From positions 26,715,209 through 26,779,208 of the forward strand of contig NC_134510.1 in NCBI RefSeq assembly GCF_027942865.1: a stretch of DNA of 64,000 nucleotides, read 5' to 3'. The translations under genes and the position numbers were made by a program. The notes below the pieces were generated by a model. It worked only from the letters and a program-made list of their open reading frames with translations. It was not told the DNA's origin and ran no database searches. The DNA is from Odontesthes bonariensis (taxonomy: Eukaryota; Chordata; Actinopteri; Atheriniformes; Atherinopsidae). The first letter of the stretch is position 1, and every line of letters starts with the position of its first letter. This document shows, one piece after another, positions 1 to 61,321 of the stretch.

Positions 1-2700
1 AGGCAGGCAGAAAAACCTCAGAGAGACACATGAGACGTGTGTGAGATGTTTGTTTTGTCCTTGTTGTGGTTCATGTCTCTAAACCACCTCAGCAGTGTGT
101 TTCTACAGCACTGATCCACCAACTGATCCCCGAAGATATCATTAGCTAACATGGCAGGAGGTGTCCTCAGGCAGTTCATTTCATTTCTGTGTTAAAAAAT
201 AACAATGTTGTATTTTTGCTGTTTAAGCAGGTATCATTAGACAGATTTTAAGCAGTTATGTGGAAAGACAAACATTTATGTCTCCTTTTCCCGTTTCATT
301 TACATTTCTTAACCTTTCGTGACACAGTCGATTCTCGCAATCGGTTTTACATTCGTGGGTCTTTTTGTCCACTCTGTTTCAAACAGTATCTTCTCTGTAA
401 TCATGCCACATCAGCACTCTCATATGTTGACTCTGTAACAGCAATTATACAAGCAAACACAATGCAAGCGTGTGTTAGTTCTATGTGGATAACGAGAGTT
501 TATTACAGACAAACCTAGACAGCAGTATGAGCAGGCAGATGTTCTCCGATGTTATACAGATGTTGTTGCTGTTTTTAATGCAGACAGGAGTCTACCACAG
601 ATTCAGTGCGGGCATTGTTACTAGCAGATGTTTAACTTCCCTGTAGTATTGAAATAAATACCATTATTCAGAGTGCTGTCAGAACTGTACTCACTCATAC
701 TTGATTATATTCATGAGTCCAAAGATCTGATTAAGTTGCACAGCCCAGATGGCCTGTAAACGTAAACTGAACAAATTTAAGATCACCAATTCCTTGTTGC
801 CTCAAATGCAATTAAGGTGAGGCAGTTTGCAGAGAATTATATTTACAGAGTCGTGCTTCTTATTGTCAGTATAAAACCTGAAAATCTTTCCATCTGCCAG
901 TTTGTTAAGGCTGCTGAAATTTGCCCAGTTTTATTAGTTTGATCAGTTTTAATGTTGGTCGTTAACGCTAGTTTGTCAGTAGAAGCATTCATACAAAAAA
1001 GAATCAGATGAAGAAAAGACATTTAGTGAAAACGGTTGGTCTCTTCCACCTGACCCGAGCGGACTCTTTTGGCAGGTTTGTTAGTTAAGGTGAGAATTTA
1101 CTCAATCCAGTTCAGTTCCTTTCACTGCAAAAAATTTATTCGTGGTATCGTAAATTACAAGAAATTTCTTTTCCAAATATTTTTTATTTCAATCAAACAA
1201 AAAAGTTGTGTCTTAGATTTTAAAGCTTTTCTCTGTGCAGCAGCTTCAATGGGTCAGAATAACCGGCAGATACAAATGATTCACGTCCAACACTGAGAAA
1301 CTTTAAAAGACTTTAAAAGTGTCTGTTTTTTTTTTGTTTAATGTTTCCCTTGTTGTATCTTACATGCACACGGAGACTTCAGCAAATTACTTCTGCTTTT
1401 ACGAGGTTTCAAATTTTTCCTTCATACTTTGAACAGCCAAGAATTAAAAACTTGATTAATATGCGAGTGATGAGAAGTTCCAAGCGTTCACACAGCAGAA
1501 TCTGTTTGCTTTCCTGAACACAGCTGAACACGTCAAAGATACAAAAATCAATGATAAAGACAATTTTCATGAAAGAGGAACTTGTAGGATCTGGTCATAA
1601 AGTTTTGAGAGGAGACGACACATCACCATTTGTAGATTTTAAGATTTACTTTCTAACTTTCCATCAAAATCAAATCAAATCAGTGGAAGAAATTCTTCCA
1701 CTGAGGAAAGCACAGAACATCTAAAACTTTTTTTCATCCCGTACTAAATATATTAAACACAGTTCTCTTTACATTTCTTTTTTCCAGCAATAAATAAATA
1801 AATAAATACTCTTTCTTTTTGAAGAGGTGCATCGCTTTAGGTGTGTTTGTTCTGATCGTTTCCTCTCAGGAAAAGTTAGAGCTTCTCGGTTTTAATAAAA
1901 TGCTTGTAGTTATTCTAACAAAGCAAGTGGCCAACAAAACTTATCAAAGACACACTACACGTTCGTCTCATAATGTTTCAAATGCCTTTATCTTACATGG
2001 CAATACAAATTACAACTGACAAACGCACTCCGATCAAAGCAGTTCTTCGTCGTCATTATAAGGCTTACTTATAATTTAAGCGTACATCTGTGTTGCGTTA
2101 CACTGATGGGCTGATTAACAGACCCTAAACTATATGAGATCAGCGCAAGGACCCAGCAGAGCTTCAAAATTCATTGTTTTTTATGGTGGCATTATTCAGT
2201 TTGCGTTTCTTTAAAAAGATTAGTCCTGCAGTTCGGGCTTTAACTCTGATACACTAACTATAAATCTAAACCAGTACAGTTACATGACCGGGAGGTGAAA
2301 TATGATGAATTAGGCCGAAAAGCTATTCAGATTGTGCCAAAGAAAGAAAACGAATCCAGAGAGATCCCAGCAAGTTTTGTGACATACATTATCAGGCAGT
2401 AGCTCAGACACCGTTGGCCCCTTTAGATGATTTATTTATCATTAGAGTCATTAGATTAAAAATACAGAAAAACAGAAATTAATATTAACTCACTAAATTA
2501 ATTATGGCCTCATTACGATACCTAAATGATGAGCTTAGTTTATCTTATAACCAGTATGTGCAACACAGATAAATATATAAATATATATTTATATGTGGAG
2601 GTTTAAGATGTTGGTGAGCAGATGTCACCCTCTTCTTCTGTAACAACCAATCAAAGGTCATTATTCTGATTCTGGCTTTCATCAACAACTCTGTGTTTTT
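1..2700. other. Left-flank non-coding sequence, no gene recognised
   Basis: AT-rich sequence with only short, compositionally random open frames. It could hold the 3' untranslated end of a gene lying to the left, since there are AATAAA-like words near 652 and 1790, but no coding exon with plausible splice sites was found. A short AAAT/AATA microsatellite lies at about 1790-1808. Confidence 0.6.
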
Positions 2701-2830
2701 TTTCAGACCAATCGCTGCTGAGGGAGGTGCGACGTTGCTTAAAAAGAGAGTTCATTTGATAAATAAAAAACATTTCCGCCTGACTCCGGATCACTGAGCA
2801 CATAAGGACGCTTGACACTCAATAGCAAAT
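2640..2830 (+). promoter_or_regulatory. Probable promoter and non-coding first exon of the CD4-1 gene
   Basis: Two CCAAT words (about 2647 and 2708) are followed by an A-rich TATA-like stretch near 2740. A strong splice donor (GTAAGTATAC) begins at 2831. The next good acceptor in the right place is at 6110/6111, directly before the CD4-1 start codon, so this is best read as a 5' untranslated exon joined to the first coding exon across a 3.3 kb intron. The elements are visible; the link between them is inferred and needs a transcript. Confidence 0.4.
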
Positions 2831-5137
2831 GTAAGTATACTCTATTTATCAAATTCAGTTTATTGTTATTTAGAATATAGAAAATGTCCAAAACTTGATC
2901 ATATATCAAGGATACATTACTTTGTGATAATTTTGAATTGTGAACTTAAAAGATCTCAGCAGGACCAGCGAGGCCTAAATGTGAAATTGTGTTTTAAATC
3001 AGCAGCACGGTGATGATCGTCTGTGAATATATTACAAAACTGAAAAAAGAAACCACCAGGTATGAAAAACTATTACACATTAAACACAAAAACAAGAAAA
3101 ACAAACACTGACATCAAACGCATGATATTGTCGTTATATCTCATAGAATTTAACATTTTGGAACGTTTTATACAATAAATATTGTCTTTTTGTTGTTGTT
3201 GCTTCATTTGTTTCATTTATACTCGGGTGAGTATTTGGCAGATGACCGCTGCAACATGGACCGCCGCTGTGTGCACAATCAGTGGGCCATTTACAAATTC
3301 TAAATCTAAAATGTAAACGTACATCTACAAAAGTACAGTAACATTTTACATTTGCGCATTCATTTTGCATAAACTGTTGGATGTAATATACCAATTTAAG
3401 CAAAACACACCTTCTACAATGATTTGTGTAAAACAGATATTCAGTGATACACACATTTATGACCTCAGTGCAAAAGAAGTTTTCTCTAATTCTCGTTATC
3501 TTGAAAAATAAGTTAAAAAAGCCATCGAACAAAATGATGTCCAACGTAAACTAAATCTGTGTGCGCGTTCTTTGGGAATGAAATTAAAAACACACAACCA
3601 AGTCTAATTAATTAAGAAAAAAATAGATAAATAAAAACGAGGATAACTTGTCCTGTGCTCTCCTTTTTCTTCACCTCTCCTCTCTTTGCTCCTCATCATC
3701 CCCTCCCCCCTCCATCACTGTTGTATCTGCTGCAGAAGCTCCATCCTGCCACAGATATCATCATCTTGGTTTCTGGGTTGTCGTTCCACGTGTACAAAAG
3801 ACTTTGAACGTCTGTTTATCATCAATATCACTCTTCTCCAAACTCCATTCAGATTTCTTCAGATTCTTATGTCAGCTCTTAGATCCCACGTGACAGGCAT
3901 TTTAATTTCAGTTCTTGATATTAAATAAGTACATTGAAAGTGTGGATATTCCCTCAGATTTGAATATAGTATGCTGTTTGAGATAACTGACTGACTGGAA
4001 TATATTTGCAAACAATGACAATTTTCTCACTTAAAAGTCAGTCAGACGGGACATTAGCTAAATATATTTGCATTCTTTCAATGAAATATTATCTTGTAAT
4101 CTAATATTGAATATTTATCCTGTTACATTCATCCCACCGACAGTATAATAAATAATTCATATACTATACTGTTCAATGCATAATTTTAAATTTGACTCTA
4201 AGTGAGACTGAGAGATTTACTGACAACTTGATTATTTAAAGGCATTTTCCATGCATTTATTGGACAGTACAGGGATGAGCGACATGCAGCATAAGGACCC
4301 GGCAGACCTAAAGCAGAAACATTGTAATGTTTGTAACTCCAGCAAAAAGCCGTAAGATATAATTTCCAATTATCATCTTATGTATTGTTTTGTTAGTTTT
4401 GCTTATTTTCTTTTTTTTTTATTAAAGTCCAAGTTAAACCCCAGAAGAATCAGACACTAGCTCTGGTTGTGTCTTTGCACCCGTTTATACTATAAACTAT
4501 AAACATTTAAATAAGCAGCATTTTGCATTGAGTTGGACATAAGATTTTATTCAGTCTGAATCTCTTGTGCTCAATAAAATGCAGAACACTGGTTTTATCT
4601 TTAACTCATGGGAAATCATCTTTTCTTTATTTGATATTTTGTTGATATTGATCAGGTTCAATTGTAAGACAGACCTATTAAAGACCGATAAAAGGTGATC
4701 ATCATAAAAAATGATAAAACTCTTTATGCTTTGACAGTATATTTATATATCCTTTAAGAAATTTTGTGGAAGAATTAAGTGAAAAACTTGATCTCTTTAA
4801 ATTATTGATTCACGTACATGAGTGGTGGGGGCCACATGAAACTCACCTGTTCTTATTCTTCAATCAAAAACCTTTTAAACTCTCTGTGCTCAACACTTTG
4901 ATAGCGAAAGAGAAGAGAAACAGAGATAATGGAGTGAAATGGGGAGAAAAAGAAACATCTACCTTAAACCACAATCTAGGTGTGCTGTCGCTGCTGTGGT
5001 CTCTCTTTTTTTCTACCTTTAAGCGTGGAGAGATCCGTCTTTCGTGGAACAAGGGAGGAAGAGAGGGGGTGTGAGACTCAGAGGGGGAGGAAGAGATGAG
5101 GGAGGACTGGGATACGAATCTGCACCTTAACTAAATC

Positions 5138-5340
5138 AAGTCCCACCACAACCCAGCGTACGCTCAGCGTGTCTCTTCCCTCCGACTTTTGTCTGCTTCT
5201 TTTCATTCAAAGCCCACCACAGGCCGCCTACTCTCAGCTCTGTGAAGTCTTTGACTTTTATCTTCTCAAATCTCTCTAAATCTGAGACCACCACAAACCC
5301 CTCGTTGCTTCCTGCTGAAAGACTTCCCTTTGCATCGAAA
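5138..5340 (+). repeat. Three imperfect ~72-bp repeats carrying RUNX-core motifs
   Basis: Three degenerate units each begin with a CCACCACA-type word. The first two carry GACTTTT and the third carries GACTTCCC at the matching place. The ACCACA cores sit at 5145-5150, 5216-5221 and 5290-5295, that is 71 and 74 bp apart, and a reverse-orientation TGTGGT lies at 4995-5000. ACCACA/TGTGGT is the RUNX core. The array is in the presumed first intron of CD4-1. A regulatory role is inference. Confidence 0.5.
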
Positions 5341-6115
5341 TTTCAAATATATAAATATGATGGTAAAGCAAGGATGTCTGTAGAAAACTAATTTATTTAA
5401 ATGGTGAGTGTAACATGTTTAAGTTTCTCAGATATATTTTTCTTACCTTTCACAGTTGAAGAAGTCCTTTCTTAAAGATTCAGGTTTATTTACTCAGAGA
5501 GACTAATTCAGGAGTTGGACCTTGTGTTCTGACTCACGCATTTGCGGAGTCAGTGAACAAAATCTTAGGAGTGAAATAAAGTAACAGTGTTCAGGAAAAA
5601 AAAGAACACAGTTGAATAGCTTCTCCTATTACAGAGCATATTTCATTACGTGACATTTTAATTGTCAAGTTTACAACTAATAGTCTGTTTTGACCCACCT
5701 TTAATTAATGATTTAAGGTCTATTCGTTGTCAGCAAAGTTGTACAGAGAGCAATCGGGTTGTTGCAAAGAAATAATTCAATAATGTTTAATGACCAAAAA
5801 AAGAGGTAAAGGTGTTCCACATGGCTCCATTTTTGGGCCACTTATTTTTCCACTGGGCAAGTACCCTCATCAGCTGGAAACTCCATCACCACGGTGTGAA
5901 ATTTAATGTCAATGCATATTTGTTATATTCAACTGTGCTGTATCTCCTTATCCATCAACAATACAATTATGGCTATTTTTTCACTTTAGAAATGTACAAA
6001 AGAACGCATGTTGTGCTTCTTCTAATGCAAAGGAATTGAGTTTGAATTGAGAGATGGTTTGCTCTTGACGTTTGTCATCTGTATCTTCCTTGTCTTATAT
6101 CGATTTTTCAGAAAT

Positions 6116-9100
6116 ATGACCACAATGAAGAGCTTAATTCAGACCATCCTTTTTGTCGTCACTGTGCTGAAAACAACGACTGGTGAGACGGACCGTCTGC
6201 AGATTTATTTATCTAATGAACAGTTGGGTTTTCCACATAAACTGAACATGCTTTTTAATCTTTTAGGATCTGAGGAGGTCATTTATGTTCAGGTTGGACA
6301 GGATGTCACTCTTGCGGGACCAGCGAGCGCTCCAGAACTTTATGTGTACTGGTACTTTGAGACAACTGATGGCATTGTGCTTGCCTGGGTCAATCATTTG
6401 GGTGGAAGGAACATCAATAGCAGTAAGCGGTGTAATCATTTAATCAAAGAAGTCATTTGTTTTTACAACAAATTGATTAAAAGGACTTGCATGTTGCAAA
6501 TAGAGGTATCTTTTATCAAACTAATGTTTCATCTTTTTTTTTTTTACCTTTGTAGATGATCCCTGGAAAGATAAACTGTCCTTGTCTGGCAATTCATTGG
6601 TCATCAAGAATATCCAGGAAAATAACTACGGGACTATTTTATGTAATGCGAAAAACAAAGTTGAGAAAATTACGTCTACATATAAACTAATCAAAGTTAA
6701 TGGTAAGAATACACAAAAGGTGACGTTATCAGTCATTTTACATTCAACATGATACAGTTTTGTTTAAAATGTGAAAATCTAGAGCATGTTTTTGGCAGTG
6801 TGTAATGCTAAGTTATATAATGTCATCGCAATTTATGTAATAGTAGTAAAAAACATACTCTAAAGATGTTAAAGCACTCAATGTGATTTTCTACACAACT
6901 GCAAAAGTATTTGCATTTGTCAGATTGATCTTATCAAGTTGATTTGATGTAAAAGTCCCCGTTCTTTGTTCTTCATTTTGTGCTAGTGAGTGTGAGTCCA
7001 GCGATGCTTTTGCTGCCTGAGGTCGATGTGTCTCTGACATGCAATGTGGAGACTCCTCAAGGTCAGAAGACACCCACCATACAGTGGAAGACTCCCCAGG
7101 GAAAAATGGAGACTGCTATTAATGGAAAATTTATGAAAAAAGCTGAGAGTCAAGACAGTGGAACGTGGACTTGTGTTGTGACAATTGATCAAAAAGAACA
7201 AAGCTTCCCAATTGTTGTTAAAGTTGTGGGTGAGTTGCTGTATATGGATACATTATGTTCTTTTTCTAGAGGTGCACCTTCATCTTGAAGATAATATTTA
7301 CATTATTTCTCTTCTCCTAACTTTTAGGCCTTTCCCCTGCTCCCAGACGTCAGTATACATCTACATCCTCTTCCCTCAATATCCCATGTTCCTTTCCTTC
7401 TGACATCCCCTGGGAACAAATAAAACAGGACATCAAGGACGTTCAGTGGCACTTCATCGCCAAAAAATCCTCCAGTCAGAATCCACAGAAGCTCGTTTCC
7501 TTCTCGCCAGGAGATTCATCAAGCTGGAAGAAGGACCAAGACAGAGAACTGAAACATACTGAAAACCAAAAGGGAGATTTTTCTTTATTCAGAAATAAGG
7601 GCAAAGCAGATGACGGGGGTGAATACCAGTGCACCGTGACTTTTAAAAATGGCAAGACTGTGACCAGCCTTATAGAAGTGGACGTGTTGCAAAGTAAGTA
7701 GAAACTAAATGATTTTCTGCAAGCCCAGCTCTTTTTTACACTGTTATTTTCTTTGCTTCCTCTTTTACGGTCTTTCGTAAAACCGTTTGAAACAAGTGTT
7801 GTATGTTCCTTGCCTCTTCTCTGCCTCTGCTCTTGTTGTACCATGCTGATATTTTTATCTCTCTGCTGAAGAATTTATTTATTTCTAGTGTGATATTTTT
7901 CCAATTCGGTGGATGATGTATCGTAACTGGAATCTGTGTTGTGAGGACTTAAGATGTAAAACTACAGTTTCTCATTTTTTAAATTTCAGCCATTATTTGA
8001 CCAGAAACAGAAATCCAGAGATGTGACGGGTTACTTAAAGGCAAAATGTCTTAAGTATTATATGACACTGTTTGCAGGTGTCTGTTTACTGAGCTCCGCC
8101 AGACAAAATCTACAGAATTTCATCAGCTGTGATTGAAAGTTGTTGTATCATACCTATCAACTCGTCTTGAATGTGCATCTCAAAATTAAATCAATTTAAA
8201 CACATAAATTTGATTATGTAAGATATTAAATCTTATTGCTGTATGAGTCTGAGAAGACAAGTTTTCATGCTTAAAAGTTTGAGATACAACAATAACTCTG
8301 CATTTGTTGTTTCACATCAGGCTTTACCTGACTGATGCTGTTCCTCCATCTCATCACACCTCTTAAGTTTTAGTGCAGCTGTTGAGTTTTAGTGCATGTT
8401 ACTTTTAAAACAAGCATTGTGATCATTCTTGAGAAAATCATTGCCATGCAGTTTTAGTCAAATGTGCAGTCTGAAGAAGATGCAGATATGTCCTGTTTAT
8501 TGCAGTGAAAGTTTTCAGTCTATGTATTTGTTCTCTCCTTCGTTCAGTCATCCCTTCCCCGGGAGCAGTGTTGGTTTCTGGCCACCAACTCAACCTGACT
8601 TGCAACACCAGTCAACAGCTGCCCGAAGATTTGAAGGTGAGGTGGATGCCACCTAACCAATTTTCATCGAATGTTGACAAAGGATCGAGCCACCTCTACA
8701 TCCCGAATGTGGGCACAAAGGCCAGCGGAATGTGGAGGTGTGAGCTGTTGCTGGGCAACAAACGGCTGACGATAGCTGATATAACGCTGAAAATTGGTGA
8801 GCACAGGAACACAAAGGCAGGAAATATGACATGGGCATGACCTTGTGGCCACAAAGTTTTATGACAGATACTTTGGTTTTACATGATGTGCTCCCTGTAC
8901 TGTATACTGTTTGATGGCTGTCTTCTGTACACAGAGCCCATACTGAGTGTGTGGATGCTGGTGATCATATGCAGCGCTGCAGTCATCCTCGTCCTCCTCT
9001 GTGTCCTCACTTTCATCCTCTGCCGGCGCCGACAAGTACAGTTAAACTATTCTAATTCCTTTCTGTTGGATCGCACAGGATTATCAGCATGTCATTGATA

Positions 9101-9405
9101 GTTTTACTTCTGTCTCTTTTTTGGTGTCTCTCTTTGTGGCTCACATTAGCGGAAGACAAGACACCTCAGGCAACGACTCTGCCGATGCAAAAAGTACGTA
9201 CAAACCATTTCCTGGACTGATGAGTCGTCAACCAACATACATTTACATCTACACACTCACTGAAATCAACAATCAACACTTTCAGCTGTTAAGGTTTATG
9301 AGGATAGAAACTTAAATCGTGTTTGTGGCTCTGTGTCTGTTTGCATCACTGAAACAAAATCTTTTATTTTTCAGCCCCAAGCCCAAAGGATTTTACCGGA
9401 CGTAA
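6116..9405 (+). CDS. cd4-1: CD4-1-like T-cell surface co-receptor (four Ig domains)
   Basis: Exons 6116-6182, 6267-6422, 6556-6702, 6987-7229, 7328-7693, 8548-8796, 8935-9035, 9150-9193 and 9375-9405 join in phase to 467 residues, close to mammalian CD4 (458). Residues 1-22 form a signal peptide. Four Ig domains follow: D1 about 23-124, D2 124-204, D3 205-326, D4 327-409. A transmembrane helix spans about 412-438, then comes a basic tail. The tail contains C454-R-C456, the CxC type motif by which CD4 holds Lck, and ends NPKPKGFYRT. Translating the tail exons in other frames destroys this motif, so the phases are well supported. D2, D3 and D4 have both canonical cysteines; D1 lacks the first one (VTLAGP in place of a VTLxC pattern). 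The role by family is MHC class II co-receptor on helper T cells. LAG3 is the main alternative, but the CxC tail favours CD4-1. A second in-frame ATG lies three codons after the first. Confidence 0.9.
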
Positions 9406-11136: not shown

Positions 11137-13383
11137 TCATGGCAGAGGGTCGGCGGCCTTCTGACAGATCCGTGGATACACAAAGTCACAGGGAACATCG
11201 TACCACCTCTGAGTGTAGCTGTCCACCACCACACAGTCCTCTCCGTCCGGCCCACCGGACTCATTGTTGTCTGGTTCGGACTTTTCCACGTTCCAAAATC
11301 TTTTCAGAAAGGATTGAAGAAAAAAATCATTGAGTGAGCATCTGTGCTGTTTTCCAAGTTAAGTTTTCATTCAACATTCAGTCCACAAACTGGAGTGTCT
11401 TAAATAGCAGTGAAATTTAAAAAAAGAAAAAAAAAACTTGTCTGTCTAATGAAGCTGGCAAGAATAACTACTGATGCAAACTTAAATCAACTTTAATTCT
11501 GTATGTGAGAGGGAATCTTTGCACACTACAATAATGGTCGCGCAGCCATTTTTATTTTGTGTTAATAACCGCGCATTCACACCGTCAGAGTAAGCCAGGT
11601 TTTCCACCAAGCAGGCAGACTGGCCCATGTCACATAATCAGTCCAGCACTTAGGTTCAGATTGAAATATCTCAACATCTATTTGATTAATTGCTTTAAAA
11701 TTTTGCACAAATAGCTACAGACTCTGCAGCATGACTCTCAAGCACCACCATGAGGTTTGGGGAGGAAATGCCTGAATCCCTTATGAATGGATTATTAAAA
11801 GACTTTGATCAAGTCCTCACCTTGACAAGGTAGAAATTAACTGATGGTCAAATTTTTATGAATTGGTCCTTTACTCAGCATCTGCTCAACAAAGTCAACT
11901 TAAACGCAGAAATAATCTTGAACGCATATGTTTGTATTTGTCGATGCTGATCCTCATGTCCAGCTGCACTTCATGCGTTTTCAAAACAATAAGCTTTATT
12001 GTAATTGTACCTTTGTGAACATGCACAATGCTTGCGCTCAGTGTGAGTGAGACCAACATAAAAGCTCTGTAACATTCGGGCCTCCACTGAAGGTTATAAA
12101 TCCTCTAACACTCTTGCTGTGTGAGTGAGTCAGTGTTGCATCATTAAGTCCTTGAATTCAGATTCAGCGCCTTGTTTTGCACATACGTATGAGCTTTTTT
12201 GTTGATATAGAACGTATTTGTTGTTTTTATGTTGTCTTATTGTGAGAGTGTCAAAGTTAGGATGAGTAATAACTCACCTTAAGAGCGCAAACAATATACG
12301 TGATGTACATGTTTTTATTTAAAACTGAAGCTAGTTGCTTGGATTATTTTGATTTGTTTGCACAACTGTAGCCTCACTGTTTATAGTTCCTGTACAATTT
12401 GATAAGTCTGTCAACCCTGATGAACTGCAAGTAAAGGTCGTAAATAGATTCTACTCAGGAAGAACCAAAATAAATAGATATTTTCTATCCTTTGTGTGTC
12501 CGAACCTGCCATTTTCTTCAAAGAGCGTGTATAATTAACATGAAAAATGATTTTTGTTTTCAAAATTTGTTTCCTCCAAATGAAATTAAATGAGAGCACA
12601 AATGGATGATGTCCAGACCTAAGGAGATTATTTTGGTTTCAATACTTACGAAACATTGAGCTTTGAGTTATCCACCCATTTCCATTCTCCTTCATTCTCA
12701 ACATCACTCAGTCCAATCCAGTAGTTTGTGTATAGACCTCCAATCCTCCTGCCTTCTTTTTCCACAGCTTCCTAAAAATGTGTTGCATCCAAGTTAATGC
12801 CTCCATCTGAATGATAAAATACTCAAAATAAATGCTCCAACAGTACACAGAGACACTTACATGCTGTTCCCTGGTGGTCAAGATGGCAAGTTGGGCGTCC
12901 ATCTTCTTACATGCATCAGCACCGGCCGACTGACTCTGTCTGTCAGTGCTGAGGTGGAAGCACTGATCCTCCACCTGAAGCCATCCATCAGGACACTCTG
13001 TGCATCTGATTGCTGGTAAAACAAAAACTAATCAATGGAAGCTGTTTGTAGAACAACATATATGAACAAACACTACAATATCATTCATCTGTTGGTGCCT
13101 GAATGAGGAGCATACAGTACCTGAAGCTGAGCAGTTGAGTGCCAGGCTGGAGTATTTATTACACAGGAGCTTGTATTGATCCTTCATCAAGGCTAGCCTC
13201 ACTTTGAAATAGGCAGCGTCTCCGTCTGGAGCCTGACAGGAGACTTGAGAGACCAAGAGGCCAAGCAGAACACCGAGGACAGCGCCTGATGACAGGGAGC
13301 AGATGCAGCATTAGTGCACAATCATACACACAGCTCAGACAGTTGAAGAGTGTCTTACCTTTATTCTTGATTAGATTCATCAT
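11137..13383 (-). CDS. Secreted (or short-anchor) C-type lectin-like protein
   Basis: Minus-strand exons 13359-13383, 13121-13285, 12861-13012, 12650-12771 and 11137-11299 join in phase to 208 residues. The start is a pair of ATGs; the first is given. MMNLIKNK is followed by about 16 hydrophobic residues ending VSC-QA, best read as a cleaved signal peptide, although a type II anchor is possible. Residues about 64-208 form a C-type lectin domain with CTECPDGW at the start, WIGLSD, an EPD tripeptide with GEDC, WYDVPC, and a final CQK region. EPD replaces the EPN/QPD sugar-specificity motif and WYD replaces WND, so ordinary mannose/galactose specificity cannot be assumed. The last three exons have the same lengths (152, 122, 163 bp) as those of the lectin at 14776-24776, which points to tandem duplication. 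It is divergent from that gene and convergent with CD4-1. Confidence 0.85.
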
Positions 13384-22236: not shown

Positions 22237-24776
22237 CTCAGGTATAGGCAGCCCAGTGCCAGGGGCCCCCCTCGATTCTCCATCTCTGGGTTTGAAGTCA
22301 GTGCAGAGGCGTTACATCCAGCTGTGTGAGGACTACGTTGCCCTGGGACACAGCTGTTCAAAGCCAGGTGGCCAAACTTACAGAGGATCAAACAAACTGG
22401 ATCCTTATCTCCTGTTGTCTTTAATATACCATTCATTGTATTTCTCTCATTAATAGTAAAGCAGTGCAGGGAGTGTCCAGAGGGTTGGCTTCATGTCGGG
22501 AATCAGTGTTACCATTTCAGCAGTGACAAGCTGGACTGGCCAAAGAGCAGAGACAGCTGTGAGGAGATGGGTGGCCACCTCACCATACTTCACACCATGG
22601 AACAGCATGTGCGCAAGTTCATGCATGTGATTTGTGTCTGAGTGTGTGTGTTTCAAGTATGGCTCACATTATGGGGAAATGTCTTTCTTGTGATGACAAA
22701 AAGCAGTTCAACAAAAACCATGCATTTTAAGGCGAAGACAGTCGTTATGGTTTAAGTTACGGTTAGGATTGGAATGAACATAAGTCAGTGTAATGTCATC
22801 TGAGGTCATGTCCTACTGTTGTGTTTATGTCTGTGAACACTGGACACAACTTATCAGCAATTGACAGCCTGGCTGACCAGCACAGGTGTTGTTTATTCCC
22901 CTTAATTGGGTCCGTTACTGCACGCTGTCAACAAGAGAAGAAAACCTGAGACGTGTGTGTGAGTAACGATGTTTTCCTCTGTCACACATCCACACTCAAA
23001 CGCACTATGCAAAACAAGGTCACTTTAAACTGATCTTTTTTTACACTTCTGCAATCTGCATTTTAATAGTTTGTTTGTTTTAATCAGATTCTGTTTTATT
23101 TATTAGATTTTCAGCTGTAACTGTCAGTGTGACCATTGCAATGAGCTATGCTTCCTTGTTAGGACTCCTCTATTATGTTTTTTTTCAATTTCAAGAAAGG
23201 ACTCTTTCCCAACACATGAACGATACAACGTGGGAGGTCCCATCCTCTGGGATGGGACTCTGCAGACTCAAAGCAGAAATCCTCAGCCAGAGCAATAATG
23301 GTTTATTCTTTTAATGGAAGGGGATTTTAATACTAGTACTTCCATTTTAAATGTGAAAACCTTTCACAAAATATATCTAATTAAATCAGCATAAACTAAG
23401 AAAGCTGTGTGTACAATTTGTGCAAATAAAAATGTTTTTTAAAAACTACTGCTAAGCATTAATGAAAATTAACTGACAGAAATTCCTGGAAATCCAGAGA
23501 GAAGCAACAGTGTGTGCACAAGAGACTGACAGTGTCAAAGCAGAGATGGATTCTGCATATAAAACAGCTTCATGATGCCTTTGCGGTGGGTCTCTGTCAT
23601 CAGAAGCAAAAGCACCTTTTCTCTCTTTTCAGCCTCACCATATCATATCTTCATACAACAACAGATATTTCTGTATCTGTTATCATTTCACTGAAGCAAC
23701 ACTTACATGATAAAAAATATTCATTACATATAATATGTTTCCCCAGTATTTCTGCAGGAGGGACACTTTAGGGGACATGAACACCATGTGATGTCATCGG
23801 AGTACATACTGTGACTGGATAGATAATGGCCCATCCTCTATGGAAAAGCCAATTGGTGCTGAAGATTATTTTTAATTGTGAAGAAGTTGCGAAGACGGGT
23901 TATGTTGCCACATAGCAACACCTTGCAATATATATTGCAAATGCGTTTTTTTTTAAAAGAAAGAAATGGAGTTGGTTACTGTAACTATGGCAACAGAGAT
24001 TCCCTCCCAGAACAATAATACAATAATGTGTTATGAGTTTTGGTGTTAAAGGACTCAAACTTGCTTTTTCTTTTTTCCCTTTTTTCCCTGGTGCAATGAA
24101 ATACATTATGTTAATGTCTTATAAAAATGTGGGTGTTATTTCCAGGTTGCTCTGGAAAAAGAGGCTCGGAGAATTGGTGGATTTGATTACCACTTCTGGA
24201 TTGGCCTCTCTGATATTGAGAACGAAGGGGACTGGAGATGGGTGGACAATACGACACTCCGGCATAAGTAACAATGATATCTCATGCATAAAGTCATTTA
24301 TTCATTTGTTTGTTTCAATCTGTATTCAAATAGCTCTTCTGCTTTCATTTTGACTTGTGTAGTACTGAATAAACTGTCGAGATAGAAAATGAAAGAGCCA
24401 AAGCAAAGTAACAAAAATTATCATTACATTCACGTAATCAGCATAAGTGCAAAATTGAAAAAATTCCAAGCATACATAATTTCTTATGTCTAAAACTCAG
24501 ACGCATCAGATTTAATTTCATGATCAAAAGTCAAGGAGCTGGGTGACCTTGTTTTTCATATTTTTCTAAAATATACCTTATTTATTCTGCCCTGCTCGCT
24601 ATCACTGTCACAGATATTGGGATCAGTGGAGCTCGGAGCCAGACAACCACCAGTCAGGAGGAGAACATGGAGAGGACTGTGCCACCTTAGACAGCCACTC
24701 AAGGACATGGTTCGATGTTCCTTGTGATCACGTTTATAAACGAATCTGCCAGATGGATGCCATTCCACTTAACTGA
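14776..24776 (+). CDS. Type II membrane C-type lectin-like receptor with YxxL cytoplasmic motif
   Basis: Exons 14776-14866, 16315-16425, 22242-22367, 22457-22608, 24146-24267 and 24614-24776 join in phase to 254 residues. The N-terminal cytoplasmic tail (about 1-45) carries EEGDNYNSL: one tyrosine with leucine at +3, preceded by acidic residues, resembling the hemITAM of dectin-1 and CLEC-2. A hydrophobic anchor spans about 46-67 and there is no N-terminal signal peptide, so the orientation is type II. A short stalk with several cysteines (68-109) leads to a C-type lectin domain (110-254) with CRECPEGW, WIGLSD, EPD, GEDC and WFDVPC. The domain is closely similar to that of the divergent minus-strand lectin and its last three exons have identical lengths. 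Family knowledge suggests a myeloid or NK-type surface receptor; ligand and signalling are unknown. The 5.8 kb second intron is full of repeats. Confidence 0.85.
16930..17060 (+). repeat. Direct repeat copy 1 (~125 bp)
   Basis: This stretch closely matches 20723-20851 on the same strand. Both share TATAATTGGCAATAAAAAAG, AAGCGTTTGCCTC, CCAGTGAGG and CACAAAAGTCCATGATTGTG in the same order, with a few substitutions. It looks like two copies of an unnamed dispersed element. Confidence 0.85.
17860..18015 (+). mobile_element. Tc1-like transposase relic, left part
   Basis: The translated plus strand reads ETKINVFGS, YYVW and RGGSVMI, matching the central region of Tc1-like transposases (the DETK-NLFG and GGSVM motifs). 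The frame is short and broken. It continues at about 18700 after an inserted LINE fragment. Confidence 0.7.
18020..18695 (+). mobile_element. L2/Rex-like non-LTR retrotransposon fragment inserted in the Tc1 relic
   Basis: An open stretch near 18160-18280 translates to LIELHWLP, AAKIKFKSL and SAPSYL, the usual C-terminal region of fish L2-like reverse transcriptase proteins. The 3' end near 18650-18690 has GTCGCTTTG and CATCTGCTAAATGACTAAAT, the tail shared by fish L2 LINEs and related SINEs. It is 5'-truncated and decayed. Confidence 0.65.
18700..19025 (+). mobile_element. Tc1-like transposase relic, right part
   Basis: The translation shows GSMSPKGL, MNACQDTKILA, LLDNDVAHCN and, after a stop, NDLNFEHLW. 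These correspond in order to the C-terminal half of Tc1 transposase (G-S-MS-KG, NA--Y--IL, the QQDNDPKHT region, SPDLNPIEHLW). With 17860-18015 it forms one element interrupted by a LINE fragment. Confidence 0.7.
19383..19800. mobile_element. Teleost interspersed repeat, first part
   Basis: Recognisable as a repeat common in fish genomes: it opens with GTGAAAGTATTCACCC, passes through GGGATTTTTGCCCATTCCTG and CACAGATTCTCAGTCAAAAT, and stops near CCTTCATTGTAG. The continuation is at about 20262-20700. I cannot assign it safely to a superfamily. Confidence 0.55.
20262..20700. mobile_element. Teleost interspersed repeat, second part
   Basis: Continues the repeat begun at 19383, starting near GTGAACCTTCGTCCCTGAAG and ending near TTTGGTGGTCTGCCCTTTCT. 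About 460 bp of unrelated sequence (19801-20261) separates the two halves, so the copy has been interrupted by an insertion or rearrangement. Confidence 0.5.
20723..20851 (+). repeat. Direct repeat copy 2 (~125 bp)
   Basis: Second copy of the element at 16930-17060, same strand and order of motifs, 3.8 kb apart. It abuts the end of the fish interspersed repeat. Confidence 0.85.
22185..22236 (+). repeat. (TCTA)n microsatellite, about 13 units, at a splice acceptor
   Basis: An uninterrupted tetranucleotide run ends five bases before the AG of the acceptor for exon 3 of the membrane lectin gene (exon starts 22242). The pyrimidine-rich part of the splice site is therefore made of the microsatellite itself. 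Confidence 0.95.
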
Positions 24777-32063: not shown

Positions 32064-35000
32064 ATGGAGGTGGAGCAGCTCCTGTCTCTGTCAGGCTCAG
32101 CACTGGCCCAGGCTGTCAGCTCTCTGCTGGAGACCCCAGGCCTCTATGTTTTTTCTGACATCCTGGAGCTGCCTAATGTCAGAGAGGTAAACTAATTCTC
32201 ACGCTATATCCCCCTTCACACTCCCTGTCTTTTTGGTGTTTTGTCTGACCTGACATGCGGGGGGGGGGCACAATGAAAATTGCATTACACTTAGCTGACG
32301 GGACCGGTGATGCAGACTGACACAATGATTGTTTTCGAACCACGCTGGACCACATCGACCTTACATTGTGGGTTGGTGAAGGGTACATCATCCTAGTTGC
32401 ACACTGAAGACCTGGCACCATCACATACAGTATAATATAGACAATACTCTGTCAATGATCATCTTTTTTTTTTTTTTTTTTGGAAATAAAATGCTGCTGT
32501 TACAGGAGAATGGGATTTATCAGAACCATTTTCTCCATTACTAAAGTAATGCCCTTGGAAGTACACAGAAAATGCCAGACCAGTGGGAGCATTTGGCAAG
32601 GAAATAGGGCACTTTTACAAACTTTTAACAGTCGAATTACATTTGTCCTCATTTACTGAATGACTGTTTTGTGGTTTCAGGCTGCGATAATGGAAGAGGA
32701 GCATTATTGCAGAAAATTTGCAGATGACATTGTGTCTGAAATTAAATGTCGGAGGGGAAAGGGGCTATAAAATCTACAACGCTGTTTATTGCATATATAT
32801 ATATCTATATATAGATATATATATAGATGTGTACGGGGTAGAGAAACTGGCCAGGTTGAAATTGTAATTGAGAGAGACAAAAAGTGAAAAAAGTCAGATT
32901 TTTGTCACTGTTCCAACCAAGTGAAAAATATGAAAGCAAATTAGAAAATATATGCATCACTGGACGCTCACCCAATTCAACTCATTACTTGCTGGACCAT
33001 TTGCTTTATGTCTCAGAATCTCTTCCCATAACTGCTGTCTTTTATATCAGTTTCTTCCAATTAAATCCATAAAAAACAGAAAAGTAAATGTATAAACATG
33101 TATCATGATGTCACAGACTTTAATACAACTTAAAGTTCCATCTTTTTATGCCACTGATCAAGGACACAAGTTTGACCAAAAATCTATTTTCTATTTTCAT
33201 CAGATTTATAGTCTTTAGATGAGCTGCAAATATTGGCTAAGGGTGAATTATTGTCACATCAAGCCTTCCTCATGCAGGATAAGATTTACTTGCAGTGTCT
33301 TCCTCTCAGACATTGTCGTTGGTTCAACAGAATGGAGCATTTTCTTTTCATTTCCTCTAAATGCGTGTCGAACACTTGTCAAATCAGCGTGGCAATTATA
33401 GGAGTCGGATAACTCCAACAAAGCCCATTTACATCTTTTAAGTCTCGGCAAACACTCAGCCAACACTGAAAAATTTACAGTAGCGCGTTTGCCGCGTCTG
33501 GAGGGAATTTTTCACACCTCGGCTGTATTTGTGACAGGCAAAACAGCTTGTAATTAAAATTCCTATAACTGTACAGTTAGTCCTTGAGAAGCGGTGCGCG
33601 TGTGATTTGAGTCAGGACCTGAAATGTACCTGAAATGACAGAATGCAGTCCTCCTGAGTTTGAATAACTTACACAGTCAGGTGGTTGTCGTCTTTCTAAC
33701 CTTTACCGACGCACTCATTTGGACGTCTCCTCAGAGTTAAAATGCAGCTTCACAGTTTTCATTCCCCATTGTATGCTGTCACATAATTTCTCTTTCCTCA
33801 TTTCTCCAAACCACAGCTGGAGAATGGCCCACATGCACCGGTGTACCAGCTCCTGAACCTCTTTGCCTATGGAACCTACTGCGACTACAAAGGTACTGCA
33901 GCCGCAGCACTATGTAAATAAGTAATAGTGCGGGTCTGAAACTCCTTTATTGAGCTGTATTTCTTTGCAGCAAGGCAGGCACCTTAACGCAGAGGATTTG
34001 AACACTCACAAGAGACACTGCAGGCGGTTTATTACCAGATAAAATTACTGGAGCACTTTAATCCTTTTCGACAGGTTTTTAGCAAGTGTTGTCACTATCT
34101 AATGATTGTGTGACACCAACTCTGGCGCAAATAGACTGTAAACGAATCTTTCGTGGCTAGATTTTCCCTCTGTGTAATGCATCAGTAAGCTTAAACAAGA
34201 AGTAGAATGTTTAATTATGTTTGAATTAATGCTGAATATCAACCAATAGCCTGGAAAAACAATGTAGCCCACTTTATTGTTTCCCTTCCACTTGAGTCGT
34301 GATGTCAGGAAGCACATTTACTTTCACAGGGCTGTGTAGTGAAGCCCTTAGAGGAGCTGTCAGAGCTGCTGTCTCAGGGGATCTACGTCCTGTCACCAGG
34401 GAGGCAAGTCTGAGGGAGACATGGTCACTGGAGACAGACTTGCTCCCGACTTCCCCCCGATTCTGTTCTTTGACTACTTAAACAGCTCCATCCTCGCCTC
34501 CAAATCGCTGTCTTACACTTCATAGTAACAAAAGGCCTCGATCATGTTTGACTGTATTTTTTCCCCTCTGTGCCTCATTCGTTTTATATATTCTTGTGTG
34601 TTGATGTAGAGCGAGCAGCCTCTCTTCCAGAGTTGACCCCAGCACAGAGAAACAAACTCCGTCATCTGTCAATTATCAGCTTGGCTTCCAACCTCAAGGT
34701 ACACATTGATGATTTTCTCCCCCCCATTTTTTTAATGATAGAAGGTAGATTTTCTGCACCCGCCACAGTGCTGCAGGCTTCACAAAGCAAACCCAGACAT
34801 TAATGATACATGGAAGATGCTGCCTTTAATTATGACTTTGCTGTTTTGTTCTGGTTGATAATCAAGTTGTCTTGAGTCCGTGTCATTTTATTTTATATTT
34901 ATTTATTCTTTCATGACTGACAAGGAACTATGTTATTTTTTTTCCAAGTCACCTTTTCCTTTGCACTTTCCAGCTACACTGCACCTCTCCTTATGCCCTT

Positions 35001-36400
35001 TTCTTTCTCCACTCCCAATAAATAATTGATTCATTATCCTCACCAACACTGTCCCTTTTCCCCTTTATATCTCTTTCCATTAACATCACTCTCCCTGTTT
35101 TTCTCCTTTATGTGTCACTGCTTTCCCTGTATGTGGGCTTGAACTCTCTAATTGCCCAGTGATGGACTGTTACATTTCAGACTTCTTTCATCCTACTCTG
35201 GCAGTGACATTTAGACAAATGATCATTTTTACTGTAACATTTTCAGCCATTTTCCAACAAACCGTCGAAGCATAACCACATTTGCTAGTTGTTTACCCAG
35301 ACATGTGAAAAAAAAGAGAAGGGAGTAAGAGTATTTAAAGTTGCTCCTTTTCGTGTTTGTTTTCTTCCCACCTCAGTGCCTGCCATACTCGCTGCTCCTG
35401 CAGCAGCTTGAGCTGAAGAACGTGCGGGAACTGGAGGACCTGTTGATCGAGGCAGTTTACTGCGACATCATCCAGGGCAAACTGGATCAGAGGAACCAGC
35501 AGGTGGAGGTGGACTGCAGCGTGGGTCGTGACCTCGGCCCGAACGAGCTGCCAAACATAGTCAACACACTGCAGGAGTGGTCGGTGTCCCCTTTATGTAT
35601 ACGTGCCCACACTTGAGACTTATCTCTCAATTCTGTTGTTTTGTAACTCCGTCTCCCTCCATCTCTTCCCCGCAGGTGCTCAGGGTGCGAGGCGGTGCTG
35701 TGTGGGATTGAGGAGCAGGTCTCGAGGGCAAACCAATACAGAGAGAGCCAACTAAAGGTTAAAGTCCAGGTGGAAACAGAGGTAAGTCATTCCTCCCTTC
35801 AGCCCACAGTATCACCAGAAAACTCTTTTTTTTTTTTGCTCCCGGCTGTCTGTGGTATTTAAGTTTCCTCCTGACTACATATTTTCTTTTTTTCCCCACC
35901 ATCTGCTTGCTTTAATCATTCCCTCTGTTTTTAAACTGGCTTCAGGATCCTTCTCTAATGCACTTCGAAGTAATGGCACATAGCTAAATTTTATTATTAT
36001 AAATTCCCTTTCCATTTATTGCATTCAATAATGCAGTAGCATTATTATACATTAGTTACATATGAATTATTTCCACTTTGTGGCTTCTCAACTATCTTTA
36101 CTGTCCTTTTCCAGGACTTTTGATTGGCTGCAGAGTTTAGCTTTTTCTGTGAAGGGAAGTTTGTGACCGAAGCTCGTACCGCAGCTCCAAGGTCTTTGAA
36201 CAGCTGGCCCTACAGCCTTAGCAACAAAAATTGAAAGTTGGGGATTCTCTTCCCTTCCCGAGTAAAAGGGCAAAGTTGGCAGAGCCTCATTAATTTTTGT
36301 TTGATTTGTCGGGCTGGCTGTTTTCCTTCAGGTTGCAGACGTTTGGTCAAGGTGAGAATGGTTGAAATAGTTTCTTCCGAAGTTTTTAATTTTTGTGAGG

Positions 36401-45224: not shown

Positions 45225-46299
45225 CAGAGTTTTGCTGTAATGATGACTGCTGTCAGGATGAGCAGTGAGGAGATGATCACGGTGACGTAGAACTGAGGGT
45301 CCACTGTAACAAACATACACACATACTCATGCAGTTACTGTGACCATGTCTAATTGTATCCTGAACAACAGAGGAAATAGTTTTTTGTTTTTTTAAAAAA
45401 AGCCAGCTGAGGTCTGTTATGTGCAAGAATCTGGCCTCCAACTTTAACAATGATCCAGTGACATCTTCTGTGTATTTTGCAGTTTTGACAACAACCAATT
45501 CCTCCCTTTGAGTGATGAGAACTTTATTAGGCATTCCCCAACACAGACACGGCCAGCTGCACACAGCAGGATGTCAGCCTTCACCTCAGTGACAGCTAAT
45601 TCCCTGGAGGACTCCTGGCGTGTGTGTGGGCTCACATGGACGTCAGCTCAAAGCCACTTTATTTAGAAATCCTTCATGTGCATCTCCTGATGCCCACCTT
45701 CCTCAGGCTCCGTCTCCTCTGCCTCCGTCCCTCCATTCTCCACTTCCTCCTTGTCCCTGGACTCCAGTGTTGCATGTTGGGGATGAATGCTCGGGTCAGG
45801 ATAAAGCCCGTCCTCTGGCGTGGCGGAGCTCGCCTCTTCCTGGTTTTCATGCATGTGCAGGTGGTCAGTTTCCTGGCTGGAGAGGAAATGGTAGGTCTCA
45901 TCCTCCAGCGGCTGCGTGGGACCCCACACCACCGCCCACAGCGGGGTGGGTGTGACCTGGGCCGTGACGGACAGCTGGACTGACAGTGTGTCCGCCTGCT
46001 CCTCGCCCTCACCTTCATCACGGTTACAGGTGGAGGGCTGTGTCACCAGAGCAACCAAGAGCAGGGAGAGGAGGGCAGTGAGTCTTGCGACAGGAGAGAT
46101 GGAGCTGGAAGTAAAAGTGGAAGAGAAAAAATGAGGGGAGGTGGAGAGAGAGTTTTTCGAGAAAACTCATTGCCCAAAGGCGCCCTGCACAACCTCAGCC
46201 GATCTCTGACATTGATTCCCATGCCAGCCATCAATCAGAATGACATTTTATGCATCTGCATTCCATACTCAGAAACTATCCATCTTACCATCTCTCCAT
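45225..46299 (-). CDS. pianp: PILR alpha-associated neural protein, partial (C-terminal exon not placed)
   Basis: Minus-strand coding exons 46289-46299, 45698-46104 and 45225-45303 join in phase to 165 residues plus an open end. The ATG (46299) gives MERC followed by a leucine-rich signal peptide (to about residue 25). The ectodomain holds LWAVVWGPT (59-67), matching the WAIVWGPT block of human PIANP, and a long acidic stretch (about 80-139). VDPQFYVTV (140-148) opens the transmembrane helix, as VDPQLYVTI does in human, and the helix runs to about 163 with AKL at the membrane exit. The last exon ends at a GTAGG donor in phase 2; reading through would stop two codons later. Human PIANP goes on with a cytoplasmic tail of about 80 residues that I could not locate. 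By family it is a neural type I glycoprotein that can bind PILR alpha. Confidence 0.85.
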
Positions 46300-46312
46300 C
46301 GCTTCACTCTGT

Positions 46313-46339
46313 TCACTGAGACCCTTCTTCTCCGATCAT
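46313..46339 (-). other. Upstream open reading frame in the PIANP leader
   Basis: Nine codons including the stop (ATG ATC GGA ... TGA) in the leader exon (acceptor at 46341/46342), ending 13 bases before the PIANP ATG and in a different frame. It could reduce translation of PIANP. Confidence 0.4.
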
Positions 46340-46855
46340 CTCTGTAAGATAAAACAGGAGGGCAAGAGAGAGAGATGGAAAAAGAGGAAGGGGGAGGGTC
46401 CTGCTTTTTTTCCTTCTTAATCTCTTTTGTCAGATTAACACCATGTAAACATAAAACCAGCGCGAGTGTGGCACAAAGCCAACTCTCACCCTTATCAAAC
46501 AGGAAAAAAATAAATCATCCATAGATTCCCCTGGGCAATCTAAATTTAACACTCAATTATGCACCACATGTTTGTAGAGGATCCACATCTGCATGCAAAA
46601 ACATCCAGAAGTACACACTCATTGTCGGTACTGTTGTTTCACACATTTACAGCGCACACACCTGAGCACAGCACATTAATCATCATTAGAAGCATCATGC
46701 ATGGAGTCAGTACTCAGTATGGCACTTTAGGCAAAGAGAGGTAACTTCCTATCAACAACTGCTGCCTAAATGCCACAGAAATGCCACTCAGGCACACACG
46801 AGCACACCGGGAGACGGACACAAGCACTCCGACACATATCAGTTATCATGCTTAC

Positions 46856-46990
46856 CTCTGGCAGTGGAGAGAGGGAATGAGAGAGGGAGACGGAGTGAAA
46901 GGGGGGAGATACAGAAAGCAAGCGAGGAAAAAAAAAAGCATCGGTTGCCGTAGCGACTGAGACATGTAGAGTCGGCTAGAGTACCAAAGG
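46856..46990 (-). other. Probable PIANP non-coding first exon
   Basis: A pyrimidine-rich minus-strand stretch ends at a good donor (CAGAG|GTAAGC) at 46856, upstream of the acceptor at 46341/46342. The 5' boundary is a guess. Confidence 0.4.
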
Positions 46991-47489
46991 GGAGAGAGAA
47001 TGATGTAGGGGAGGGCCAGGGACTGTAGGAAAGAGATTTAAATGCTAATTATTTTTTATTTTTTTTAAAGAAAGAGTTCAATTAAATGGACACAGAGGAA
47101 GAGAAATGAATTTGACAAGGCAAATAGAAATGATACAGAGGAAGACGTTAGTGAGATCATTTTGGAGGCGAGAGGTTAAAAAAAAACCAAAAAAAAAACT
47201 CTTCAATGATGTTTACAAAAGCAGCATGGATACCCCAGAGAAAACAAGACAGCGAAGAGGAGTGAAAAAAAGAGTGATGGGGACAGAGATGGCTCAAAAT
47301 TCAATCAACATTCATTCACACAGTTTGCAGCGGCAGAGAGGGGCGACGAACTGGTGCGTCGAGAGGAGGCAGGGTCACAGAGAAATTTAAAAAAAAAGAC
47401 AACAGCAGATGCAAATATGGAGGTGAGAGTCACTGTGCGACAGCTTTATTGGATGTGGAAATATTTACATAGAAAACAATCTGCCTATC

Positions 47490-47526
47490 TCACACACACA
47501 CACACACACATTCACACACACTCTCT
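47490..47526. repeat. (CA)n microsatellite
   Basis: A CA run of about 11 units followed by a shorter CA block, between the PIANP and WD40 genes. Confidence 0.9.
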
Positions 47527-47675
47527 CTTCATCCATATGTTCCCACTCCCACTAACACTATTACACTTCACTCCCCTGCGCCCTCCTTTGCCGTCTTCAC
47601 CCTCCCACCCTCCCACCCTCTCATTTCCTCTTCATGGCTGCAGGCCATGGTGTCCTCCATGCAGGAGGCCGCCGC

Positions 47676-58122: not shown

Positions 58123-60196
58123 GTAAACGCCGCTGTTCTCCATGCAGTCGCTGGTAATTTTTCGTAGATATGCACGACTCTGCTGCCGCCTCTCCACCCG
58201 TCCCCACAGCCGGAAGTCTGTGAGGATGGTCTGTTGTTTTTTTTTTTTTTCTCTTCGCTTCAGTTTTTTTTTTTTCATCCTTTTGGGTTTTTTTCTTTGC
58301 ATGTTTTTTTTTTTTCTTCCAGGCGGGAGGGCAGCACAGACTCACTGTCTGCTAACTGCATGTTAATCAGCACGTCGGGCCTGATTAACCACAACATGTA
58401 AAGGGCCGAAATGGAGTCCTGCTGTTGAGCTGCTGCGCCTTATTGAAAACATAACATACATCTGACATTTAGCGATTTACACAAGTTGCAGTTTTGTTGC
58501 TCACTTGGACTCATCATACCAGATTATGTAGCTTAGAAGCTGGATCTGGTGTGAACGCCTCTTGACGTGGGTCACAAACTATATTTAGCATATTTAAAGC
58601 ATTTAAGAGGTCATTTACATACTTATTATCACAATAGCATAATCCAGGCTAATGAAAAAACAGGAATTGCATCTGCATTTTTGATGGATCATACCTCTTA
58701 ATTTGTTTGTTATAAGATGTTTATTATTCATCTTAATATTTTCTTTTTGTTGAAATTTTGCCACTGCAGTTTTGCTTCCTCTGCTGCATTACTAACACGG
58801 CTAAGTAAGAAGCCACTTCAATTGCCCCAAAGCTTTTCAGGGCCCCCCCCCTCAACAACTCCAGCTCGTTTCTTTGACAATCGGTTTTGTGGTAACTCGT
58901 TTGGCAGGATTTTTTTGCAGGAGACATTTTGCATGTAGCAGGCAGAAAAGCACAAGTGGGAACAATAACTTGTATTTGGCCAGAATGCATTTCACTCTCA
59001 GTTTCAGGGTCCTGGTGTGGTTTTCTGGGACAGTTAACTGAGACTACGTTCATTCCGCTTTTTATTTTATGACGAGTCAAAATGTCACCTGTTAAGAGTC
59101 ACTTCATTGCTCAAACCCTGTCATGGACATTGTCAGACTCACTGTCAGAATCAGAACCCTTAATAATTGCTTACAACGGCCATAAGCTTACAGTAATTTG
59201 TGTTTAAAACAAGCACATCTCTGCAAACCGGGTAATGTGGCAGGAAAAATCCACACATGAACATGGAGGGTTACAGGTTGCTCTGGTGTTGGTTGGATCC
59301 TTACAATTATAACACATTTTATTTGTTGTGTATTACAGTCTTATTGATAACCAGGATAATGAAAATGAAACACAGGCTTAAAGGGGTGAGAAAGTACTAT
59401 TCTCACTTTTCAGTCACTAGATTGCACTTGAATGAGGCTCTCAATCATTTTGCCTGTTGTGGTATCTGTATTTTGTCCTGATTATATAAATTAGACCAAA
59501 TAAAATGTGGTAAAATCCAAATCTAGTCCGTAAAGTCAGATAGAAGGCATTACATGGTGTAATAAGAAAACCAACAGACAGATGAGCACTGCTTCTTGAT
59601 CCCTAAAAAAAAAAGAAGAGGTTTGGTTACCCCTGAAAAATGGATGTATATGGTCCAATTGAGGTAAAGGAAGGCCCCAGATAAAGGCTACAACGGTGAG
59701 ATCCTCCCAGGTCAGAACACAGAGCACTACAACCTAATGCGATTCTGTTTGATAAAGGACATTAGGAAAATGTACCAAACCTGTCGTGTAAAACAAGGAG
59801 AGGAGGAAATGGGTTTCCACCCTCTCGGGATAACGCTTTTCTACTCTGGACTTAAACCCAAAATCACGAACCCTGTAAAGGATTAGCTCTCTGTTCTATA
59901 TGCTGCTGTACAAATTGTAAATGTCGTGCCAGCTCCTCGCACTAATCGCAGTTTGCAGACAGAGAAGAATGTGCTACATGGAAATGCTTTGATCCCATCT
60001 CCCCTCTTTCAACCATAACCCATCTGGAGTCTCCTCACCAGCGCATGCCTCTAACCCATGCCTCTTTTAATGTGGAGAGAGGTGGATTGTCATAACATTG
60101 AGATCACTTTAAGTTCAGTTGCATTGTGCCTTTATTGGCTTTGGCATCAAGTTTTTAAAGCTTTTACCTTGTTGCTCTTGTGTCTCTGCAGCAGTA

Positions 60197-61127: not shown

Positions 61128-61321
61128 GTGAAACATTCATACAGCGTATTCCATCTTGTGTAATGCAATGCCTTAATGCGATTTTCAGTTAAATTGGCCT
61201 GTTAGATTTTTAGTTTCTTAAATTTCTTCAGGGTAGCTAATGCAGTATAACACAGTGTCCGCCATTCAGAAAATCGGTGACGGCATTATATGATATGAGG
61301 AACAACCCTCTCTTGATGAAC

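Follow-up and report, generated by a model that had tools for sequence, protein, structure and literature searches.

The 64-kb stretch of DNA analysed here (the window; positions 26715209–26779208 of a 945-Mb fish genome in 187 contigs) contains a genuine CD4-1 gene. Its nine coding exons lie on the plus strand, the first at 6112–6182, with the ATG at 6116 and an acceptor-like ttttcag immediately 5′, and the other eight at 6267–6422, 6556–6702, 6987–7229, 7328–7693, 8548–8796, 8935–9035, 9150–9193 and 9375–9405. Spliced together, they encode a protein of 467 residues, the best solved-structure match of which is the T-cell surface glycoprotein CD4 (9oaj_C, E = 2e-13, residues 15–451), followed by a LAG-3 chain. 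A Pfam scan of four exon pieces found Ig domains on three of them and none on the first, and the translation, read from the sequence, carries a WTC motif and a CxC tail, both of which are among the features of teleost CD4-1 described in passages of PMC4470515. The zebrafish cd4-1 gene starts translation in the third of its 11 exons (PMC4470515, PMC5073357) and therefore has nine from the ATG exon onwards, the same count as here. The structure match, the CxC tail and the nine coding exons bear out the CD4-1 identity that the initial annotation had assigned to this gene. Comparison of the exon at 7330–7692 with viral contigs gave 18 pattern matches and no relatives.

CD4-1 is accompanied by several other genes. 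C-type-lectin-like exons lie beside it at 12708–13028 (minus strand) and 22330–22638 (plus strand), with Pfam matches to UL45-type lectins that do not reach the curated cut-off (E = 0.003 and 0.029), and a further lectin-like piece at 11137–11358 (minus strand) is alike by eye. COPS7A-like exons with a PCI domain match occupy 34552–35616 (plus strand), and WD40-repeat-like exons occupy 45663–52762 (minus strand), one piece of which was scanned and gave a weak Pfam match (E = 0.05). The exons at 60113–61192 (plus strand) have no Pfam match and are presumably ZNF384-like; we take the COPS7A and ZNF384 neighbours to be arranged as in the human 12p13 CD4 region. Approximately 15–17.5 kb upstream of the CD4-1 start codon, on the same strand (L005:8650–10000 and L004:1–1060), is a gene for a small Ig-type membrane protein in which a WQC motif, one transmembrane stretch and a tail without CxC can be recognized by eye. 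From these features it looks like a member of the CD4/LAG3 family, perhaps CD4-2, in tandem with CD4-1; its first Ig exon has no CD4 match. Three RUNX cores occur near this gene, in L005:7000–9200, and the exons upstream of it (L006/L005) are ones that we take to be USP5.

The non-coding interval at 4960–5300, located 5′ of the CD4-1 start codon, holds a group of RUNX core words. ACCACA occurs on the plus strand at 5145, 5216 and 5290 (spacings of 71 and 74) and its reverse, TGTGGT, at 4995, exactly where the initial annotation had placed them; a fifth core, ACCACA at 4968 on the plus strand, had been overlooked. All five fit in 328 bp (4967–5295). The canonical 7-base RUNX motif is TGYGGTY (PMC11962653), and two of the sites carry it in full: TGTGGTT at 4967–4973 on the minus strand and TGTGGTC at 4995–5001 on the plus strand. 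These two are inverted relative to each other, with their starts 28 bp apart, and make up the tightest TGYGGTY pair among the 29 such sites of the window; two TGYGGTY sites per 501 bp are also found in 41 of 2080 segments. Each of the three array cores (5145, 5216 and 5290) is preceded by C and reads TGTGGTG on the minus strand, off the TGYGGTY consensus; the seventh base of the RUNX motif is less important than the core. Under the 6-base definition TGt/cGGt/c, which has been applied to mouse Runx3 peaks from CD8 T and NK cells (PMC3827420), all five cores count as sites. No study of RUNX binding to TGTGGTG was found among the papers listed, as judged by title and the opening of the abstract.

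The array cores had been described as lying in three imperfect repeats of ~72 bp, and two of the three are repeats. Unit 1 (5136–5197, core at 5145) and unit 2 (5207–5266, core at 5216), both on the plus strand, are identical in 46 of 66 aligned columns with a score of 35, which none of 2000 shuffles equalled, also when the core was masked, and the adjacent 72-bp pair from 5131 ranks second among 6385 starts. The third core, at 5290 in 5276–5299 (plus strand), sits in DNA that, beyond the core itself, bears no significant likeness to either unit, and the claim of a third copy falls to chance level: its alignment with unit 1 was equalled in 117 of 2000 shuffles (154 with the core masked) and that with unit 2 in 427 (263 with the core masked). 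Units 1 and 2 descend from an old tandem duplication of ~70 bp; Tandem Repeats Finder, at a score of at least 40, did not report the array. Both consensus sites (4967 and 4995) fall outside the repeats. Given 46 matches in 66 columns, a perfect run of at least 9 between the two units arises in roughly half of the permutations (10749 of 20000), so the length of the run that includes the shared core gives no sign of extra constraint on the core, and we dropped that proposal.

The excess of RUNX cores just 5′ of the CD4-1 start codon is local and real. Five sites within 322 bp (start to start) were equalled in a single one of 500 window-wide dinucleotide shuffles, and again in 1 of 500 when the run was repeated, for a word and a location that were picked after inspection of the sequence. 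In the 84 kb around the gene, with 78 TGYGGT and 146 TGYGGY sites, the interval is also the densest 330-bp stretch for either word. At least five TGTGGT words occur in 2 of 2080 segments of 501 bp, and since the segments advance in steps of 100 bases, these two must, from their coordinates, be segments that hold the whole cluster at the CD4-1 locus. Smaller groups were equalled more often: 14 of 500 window shuffles matched four sites within 248 bp, and 78 of 500 matched the array on its own, three sites within 145 bp. When the duplicated unit is counted once, four sites in 322 bp remain, a density reached by 22 of 500 window shuffles and by 11 of 5000 shuffles of positions 1–6111.

Those frequencies for the array alone and for the cluster with its duplication discounted lend some weight to a reading without function, in which a common hexamer has grouped by chance in ordinary non-coding DNA and the group has been enlarged by one tandem duplication. 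We give this reading serious if less than even credence, and it ranks close behind the RUNX-bound control element that we tentatively favour. ACCACA is indeed common, with 51 occurrences in the window where 43 are expected, and it is 33rd of 1977 hexamers in a count-corrected measure of the tightest five-site cluster, some of the 32 ahead of it being simple-repeat words. Triples of ACCACA at the array's spacing (65–77 bp) are about as frequent in the 945-Mb genome as those of the reversed word (7456 versus 6343, as overlapping counts, with tandem arrays at many of the places listed). The pair at 4968 and 4995 followed by a next core at similar gaps recurs 66 times in 945 Mb, compared with 258 times for the reversed pattern, so the combination is rare yet not enriched, and other T-cell motifs, considered below, show no joint enrichment either. 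Against a chance origin, five sites in 322 bp were reached in only 3 of 5000 shuffles of window positions 1–6111, and 13 arbitrary loci from the same genome (130 kb) contain no cluster of five in 330 bp, none of four in 248 bp and a single one of three in 151 bp. Moreover, the cluster adjoins a gene whose mammalian counterpart is controlled by RUNX.

Local GC content reaches 0.515 at 5000–5199, the top of 41 windows in 2000–6200, 34 of them no higher than 0.40. There is an abrupt switch in strand composition within 4900–5330, from purine-rich up to ~5105 to pyrimidine-rich thereafter, and the GC skew passes from +0.398 (4900–5099) to −0.361 (5100–5299). The purine-rich tract at 5050–5105 (plus strand) includes the ETS core GGAAG at 5057 and 5089, and further GGAAG cores occur at 5175, 5308 and 5323. 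ETS, TCF, GATA, MYB and E-box words are not jointly enriched, as 26.6% of the 2080 segments score as high; for ETS words alone the figure is 10.4%, and the cluster segment holds no MYB or E-box word.

Several other identities for the interval were rejected. A search of the 945-Mb genome, made with simple repeats and very common words passed over, returned a single match, the interval itself; within that limit a dispersed repeat or transposon is improbable, and we ruled it out. A CpG-island promoter is unsupported, the CpG ratio at 4951–5350 being an ordinary 0.53 against a mean of 0.46. A structured RNA or DNA hairpin was also discarded: the 381-nt strand at 4960–5340 folds as DNA with a z score of −0.07, 40 of 100 shuffles being at least as stable, and a search of the window against Rfam at gathering thresholds gave no matches.

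The setting of the cores depends on where the transcript begins. Because the acceptor of the ATG exon scores only 4.9, the seventh of the nine CD4-1 acceptors, we infer a non-coding exon upstream of it mainly by analogy with zebrafish and human CD4. Two candidate donors for such an exon both appear usable, on splice-site scores that apply mammalian weights to a fish. GTAAGT at 2831–2836 (plus strand; last exon base 2830; score 7.98, rank 11 of 993 GT in 16.1 kb) would place the array in an intron, and GTGAGT at 5404–5409 (plus strand; last exon base 5403; score 9.85, rank 4) would place it in a promoter. The reading frame of the Ig-type gene upstream ends ~15 kb before the CD4-1 ATG, which would also leave room for a first exon beyond either donor.

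If the donor at 5403 is used, the TATA-like box TATATAAATA at 5348–5357 (plus strand) could be a candidate promoter element that directs a start at ~5375–5385 and a short non-coding exon 1 ending at 5403; the cores would then sit at about −80 to −410, with no first intron around them. The box stands 55 nt before the donor, and a TATA-like box 30–110 nt before a donor scoring at least 9.85 was seen twice in 260 kb of strand from the 13 arbitrary loci, so that 6.1 kb would be expected to hold 0.05 such pairs and 16.1 kb 0.12. The three donors that outrank 5403 (816, 3226 and 1089) have no TATA-like box 30–250 nt 5′ of them. However, looser limits (any GTRAG, with a TATA-like box 30–250 nt before it) yield four pairs in 16.1 kb, the CpG ratio is not raised, the donor weights are mammalian frequencies, and the implied exon would be merely ~20–30 nt long. 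In zebrafish, exon 1 measures 52 bp and intron 1 spans 13 kb, and the ATG comes in exon 3 (PMC5073357, PMC4470515); passages on mouse Runx3 report that TGCGGT marks promoters and TGTGGT, the word found here, remote elements (PMC3827420). The pairing makes a proximal promoter a live candidate, though on balance an unlikely one. Were it nevertheless true, the first exon would lie downstream of 5340, an outcome that the initial annotation had itself named as fatal to its proposal.

The zebrafish gene structure suggests one further arrangement, in which the interval holds or borders a second non-coding exon and the pyrimidine-rich units are 3′ splice-site sequence. An acceptor-like AG before 5238, with a score of 8.78 (rank 21 of 977), could be paired with the donor at 5403 (9.85), and zebrafish cd4-1 has an extra intron in its 5′ untranslated region (PMC4470515), but 20 other AG outrank this acceptor in the 16.1 kb scored, and we think the arrangement has only a slim chance of being correct.

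The nearest mammalian precedent for a RUNX-dependent element in this position is the mouse Cd4 silencer S4, a 434-bp element of the first intron in which two Runx motifs are needed for repression (PMC5360760, PMC6125603). The fish cluster (4967–5295) likewise has RUNX motifs within ~300–450 bp in a CD4 gene region, ahead of the first coding exon (coding start 6116), and the sites at 4967 (minus strand) and 4995 (plus strand) provide two consensus motifs. Unlike S4, it combines two consensus with three off-consensus cores, some of them in a tandem duplication, and its intron position, RUNX binding and silencing activity are putative. Another Cd4 control element, the maturation enhancer E4m (also NCE), recruits Runx, as the fish interval may also do, but without canonical Runx motifs (PMC6125603), which the latter has.

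RUNX sites were predicted in silico in 2015 in intron 1 of zebrafish cd4-1 and were absent from the cd4-2 genes (PMC4470515), so the idea of RUNX sites ahead of the coding exons in teleost cd4-1, a feature shared with the interval described here, is not wholly new. The zebrafish sites sit in a 13-kb intron of a gene whose structure was established by RACE cDNA, whereas here the first exon has rival candidate donors at 2830 and 5403, and the text passages of that paper describe no tandem array, in contrast to the two-unit duplication here. Among the matches listed from the open-licence literature we found no fish cd4-1 silencer that had been tested for function, and among the papers listed no experimental account of how cd4 is shut off in fish cytotoxic T cells. 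The passages of a chromatin paper on turbot (PMC12263217) hold no cd4 result, and the main text of a comparison of CD4 and LAG-3 from sharks to humans (PMC10768021) mentions neither silencer, RUNX, exon 1, UTR nor synteny.

A cluster of S4-like size (~330 bp versus 434 bp) with two consensus sites 5′ of the start codon, together with the zebrafish prediction (PMC4470515), is what could be expected of an S4-like silencer in the first intron, as the initial annotation had proposed. Yet the consensus sites lie off the array, only two of the repeat copies are genuine, and the intron position depends on the candidate donor at 2830, with 5403 as its competitor. We therefore consider silencing of the S4 type improbable, and activation, as an enhancer or promoter, somewhat less so. 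What survives of the proposed array-built silencer is the real excess of RUNX cores 5′ of the CD4-1 start; the part assigned to the array is weakened by the TGTGGTG cores, by the presence of only two true repeats and by the frequency with which shuffles match the array.

The single most likely reading, in our tentative judgement, is that 4960–5300 controls cd4-1 in T cells as an element bound by RUNX. RUNX with CBFb would bind the inverted consensus pair at 4967 and 4995, the weaker TGTGGTG cores, one of them born by the old 70-bp duplication, would assist, and RUNX together with ETS factors on the nearby GGAAG words would set cd4-1 expression by lineage. This reading, in which RUNX binding, activity in T cells and the sign of that activity are inferred, is favoured by the rarity of the cluster in shuffles (1 in 500 and 3 in 5000), its density within 84 kb, the high local GC, the CD4-1 identity of the gene, the single genome match and the mouse S4 and zebrafish precedents. 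The reading is weakened by the post hoc choice of word and place, by the shuffle frequencies for the cluster with the duplication counted once (22 of 500) and for the array alone (78 of 500), by three of five cores being off TGYGGTY, and by the lack of joint T-cell motif enrichment, of extra core constraint and of a raised CpG ratio. Our confidences in the several explanations overlap where these are compatible, as a promoter or a silencer may each be the RUNX element.

A narrower and improbable version would have the inverted pair and the duplicated weaker cores form a self-made fish RUNX element that silences cd4-1 in cytotoxic T cells. In that case, the logic of the mammalian Cd4 silencer would be carried by unrelated DNA, either as an independent solution or as one rebuilt beyond recognition. 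Should the interval prove to be no more than a promoter or a chance cluster, there would be nothing unusual about it. As a defined, single-match candidate of 330 bp with five mutable cores, it makes the question of how fish shut off cd4 testable, and if it does silence the gene, RUNX control of CD4 would either predate the split between teleosts and tetrapods or have arisen twice.
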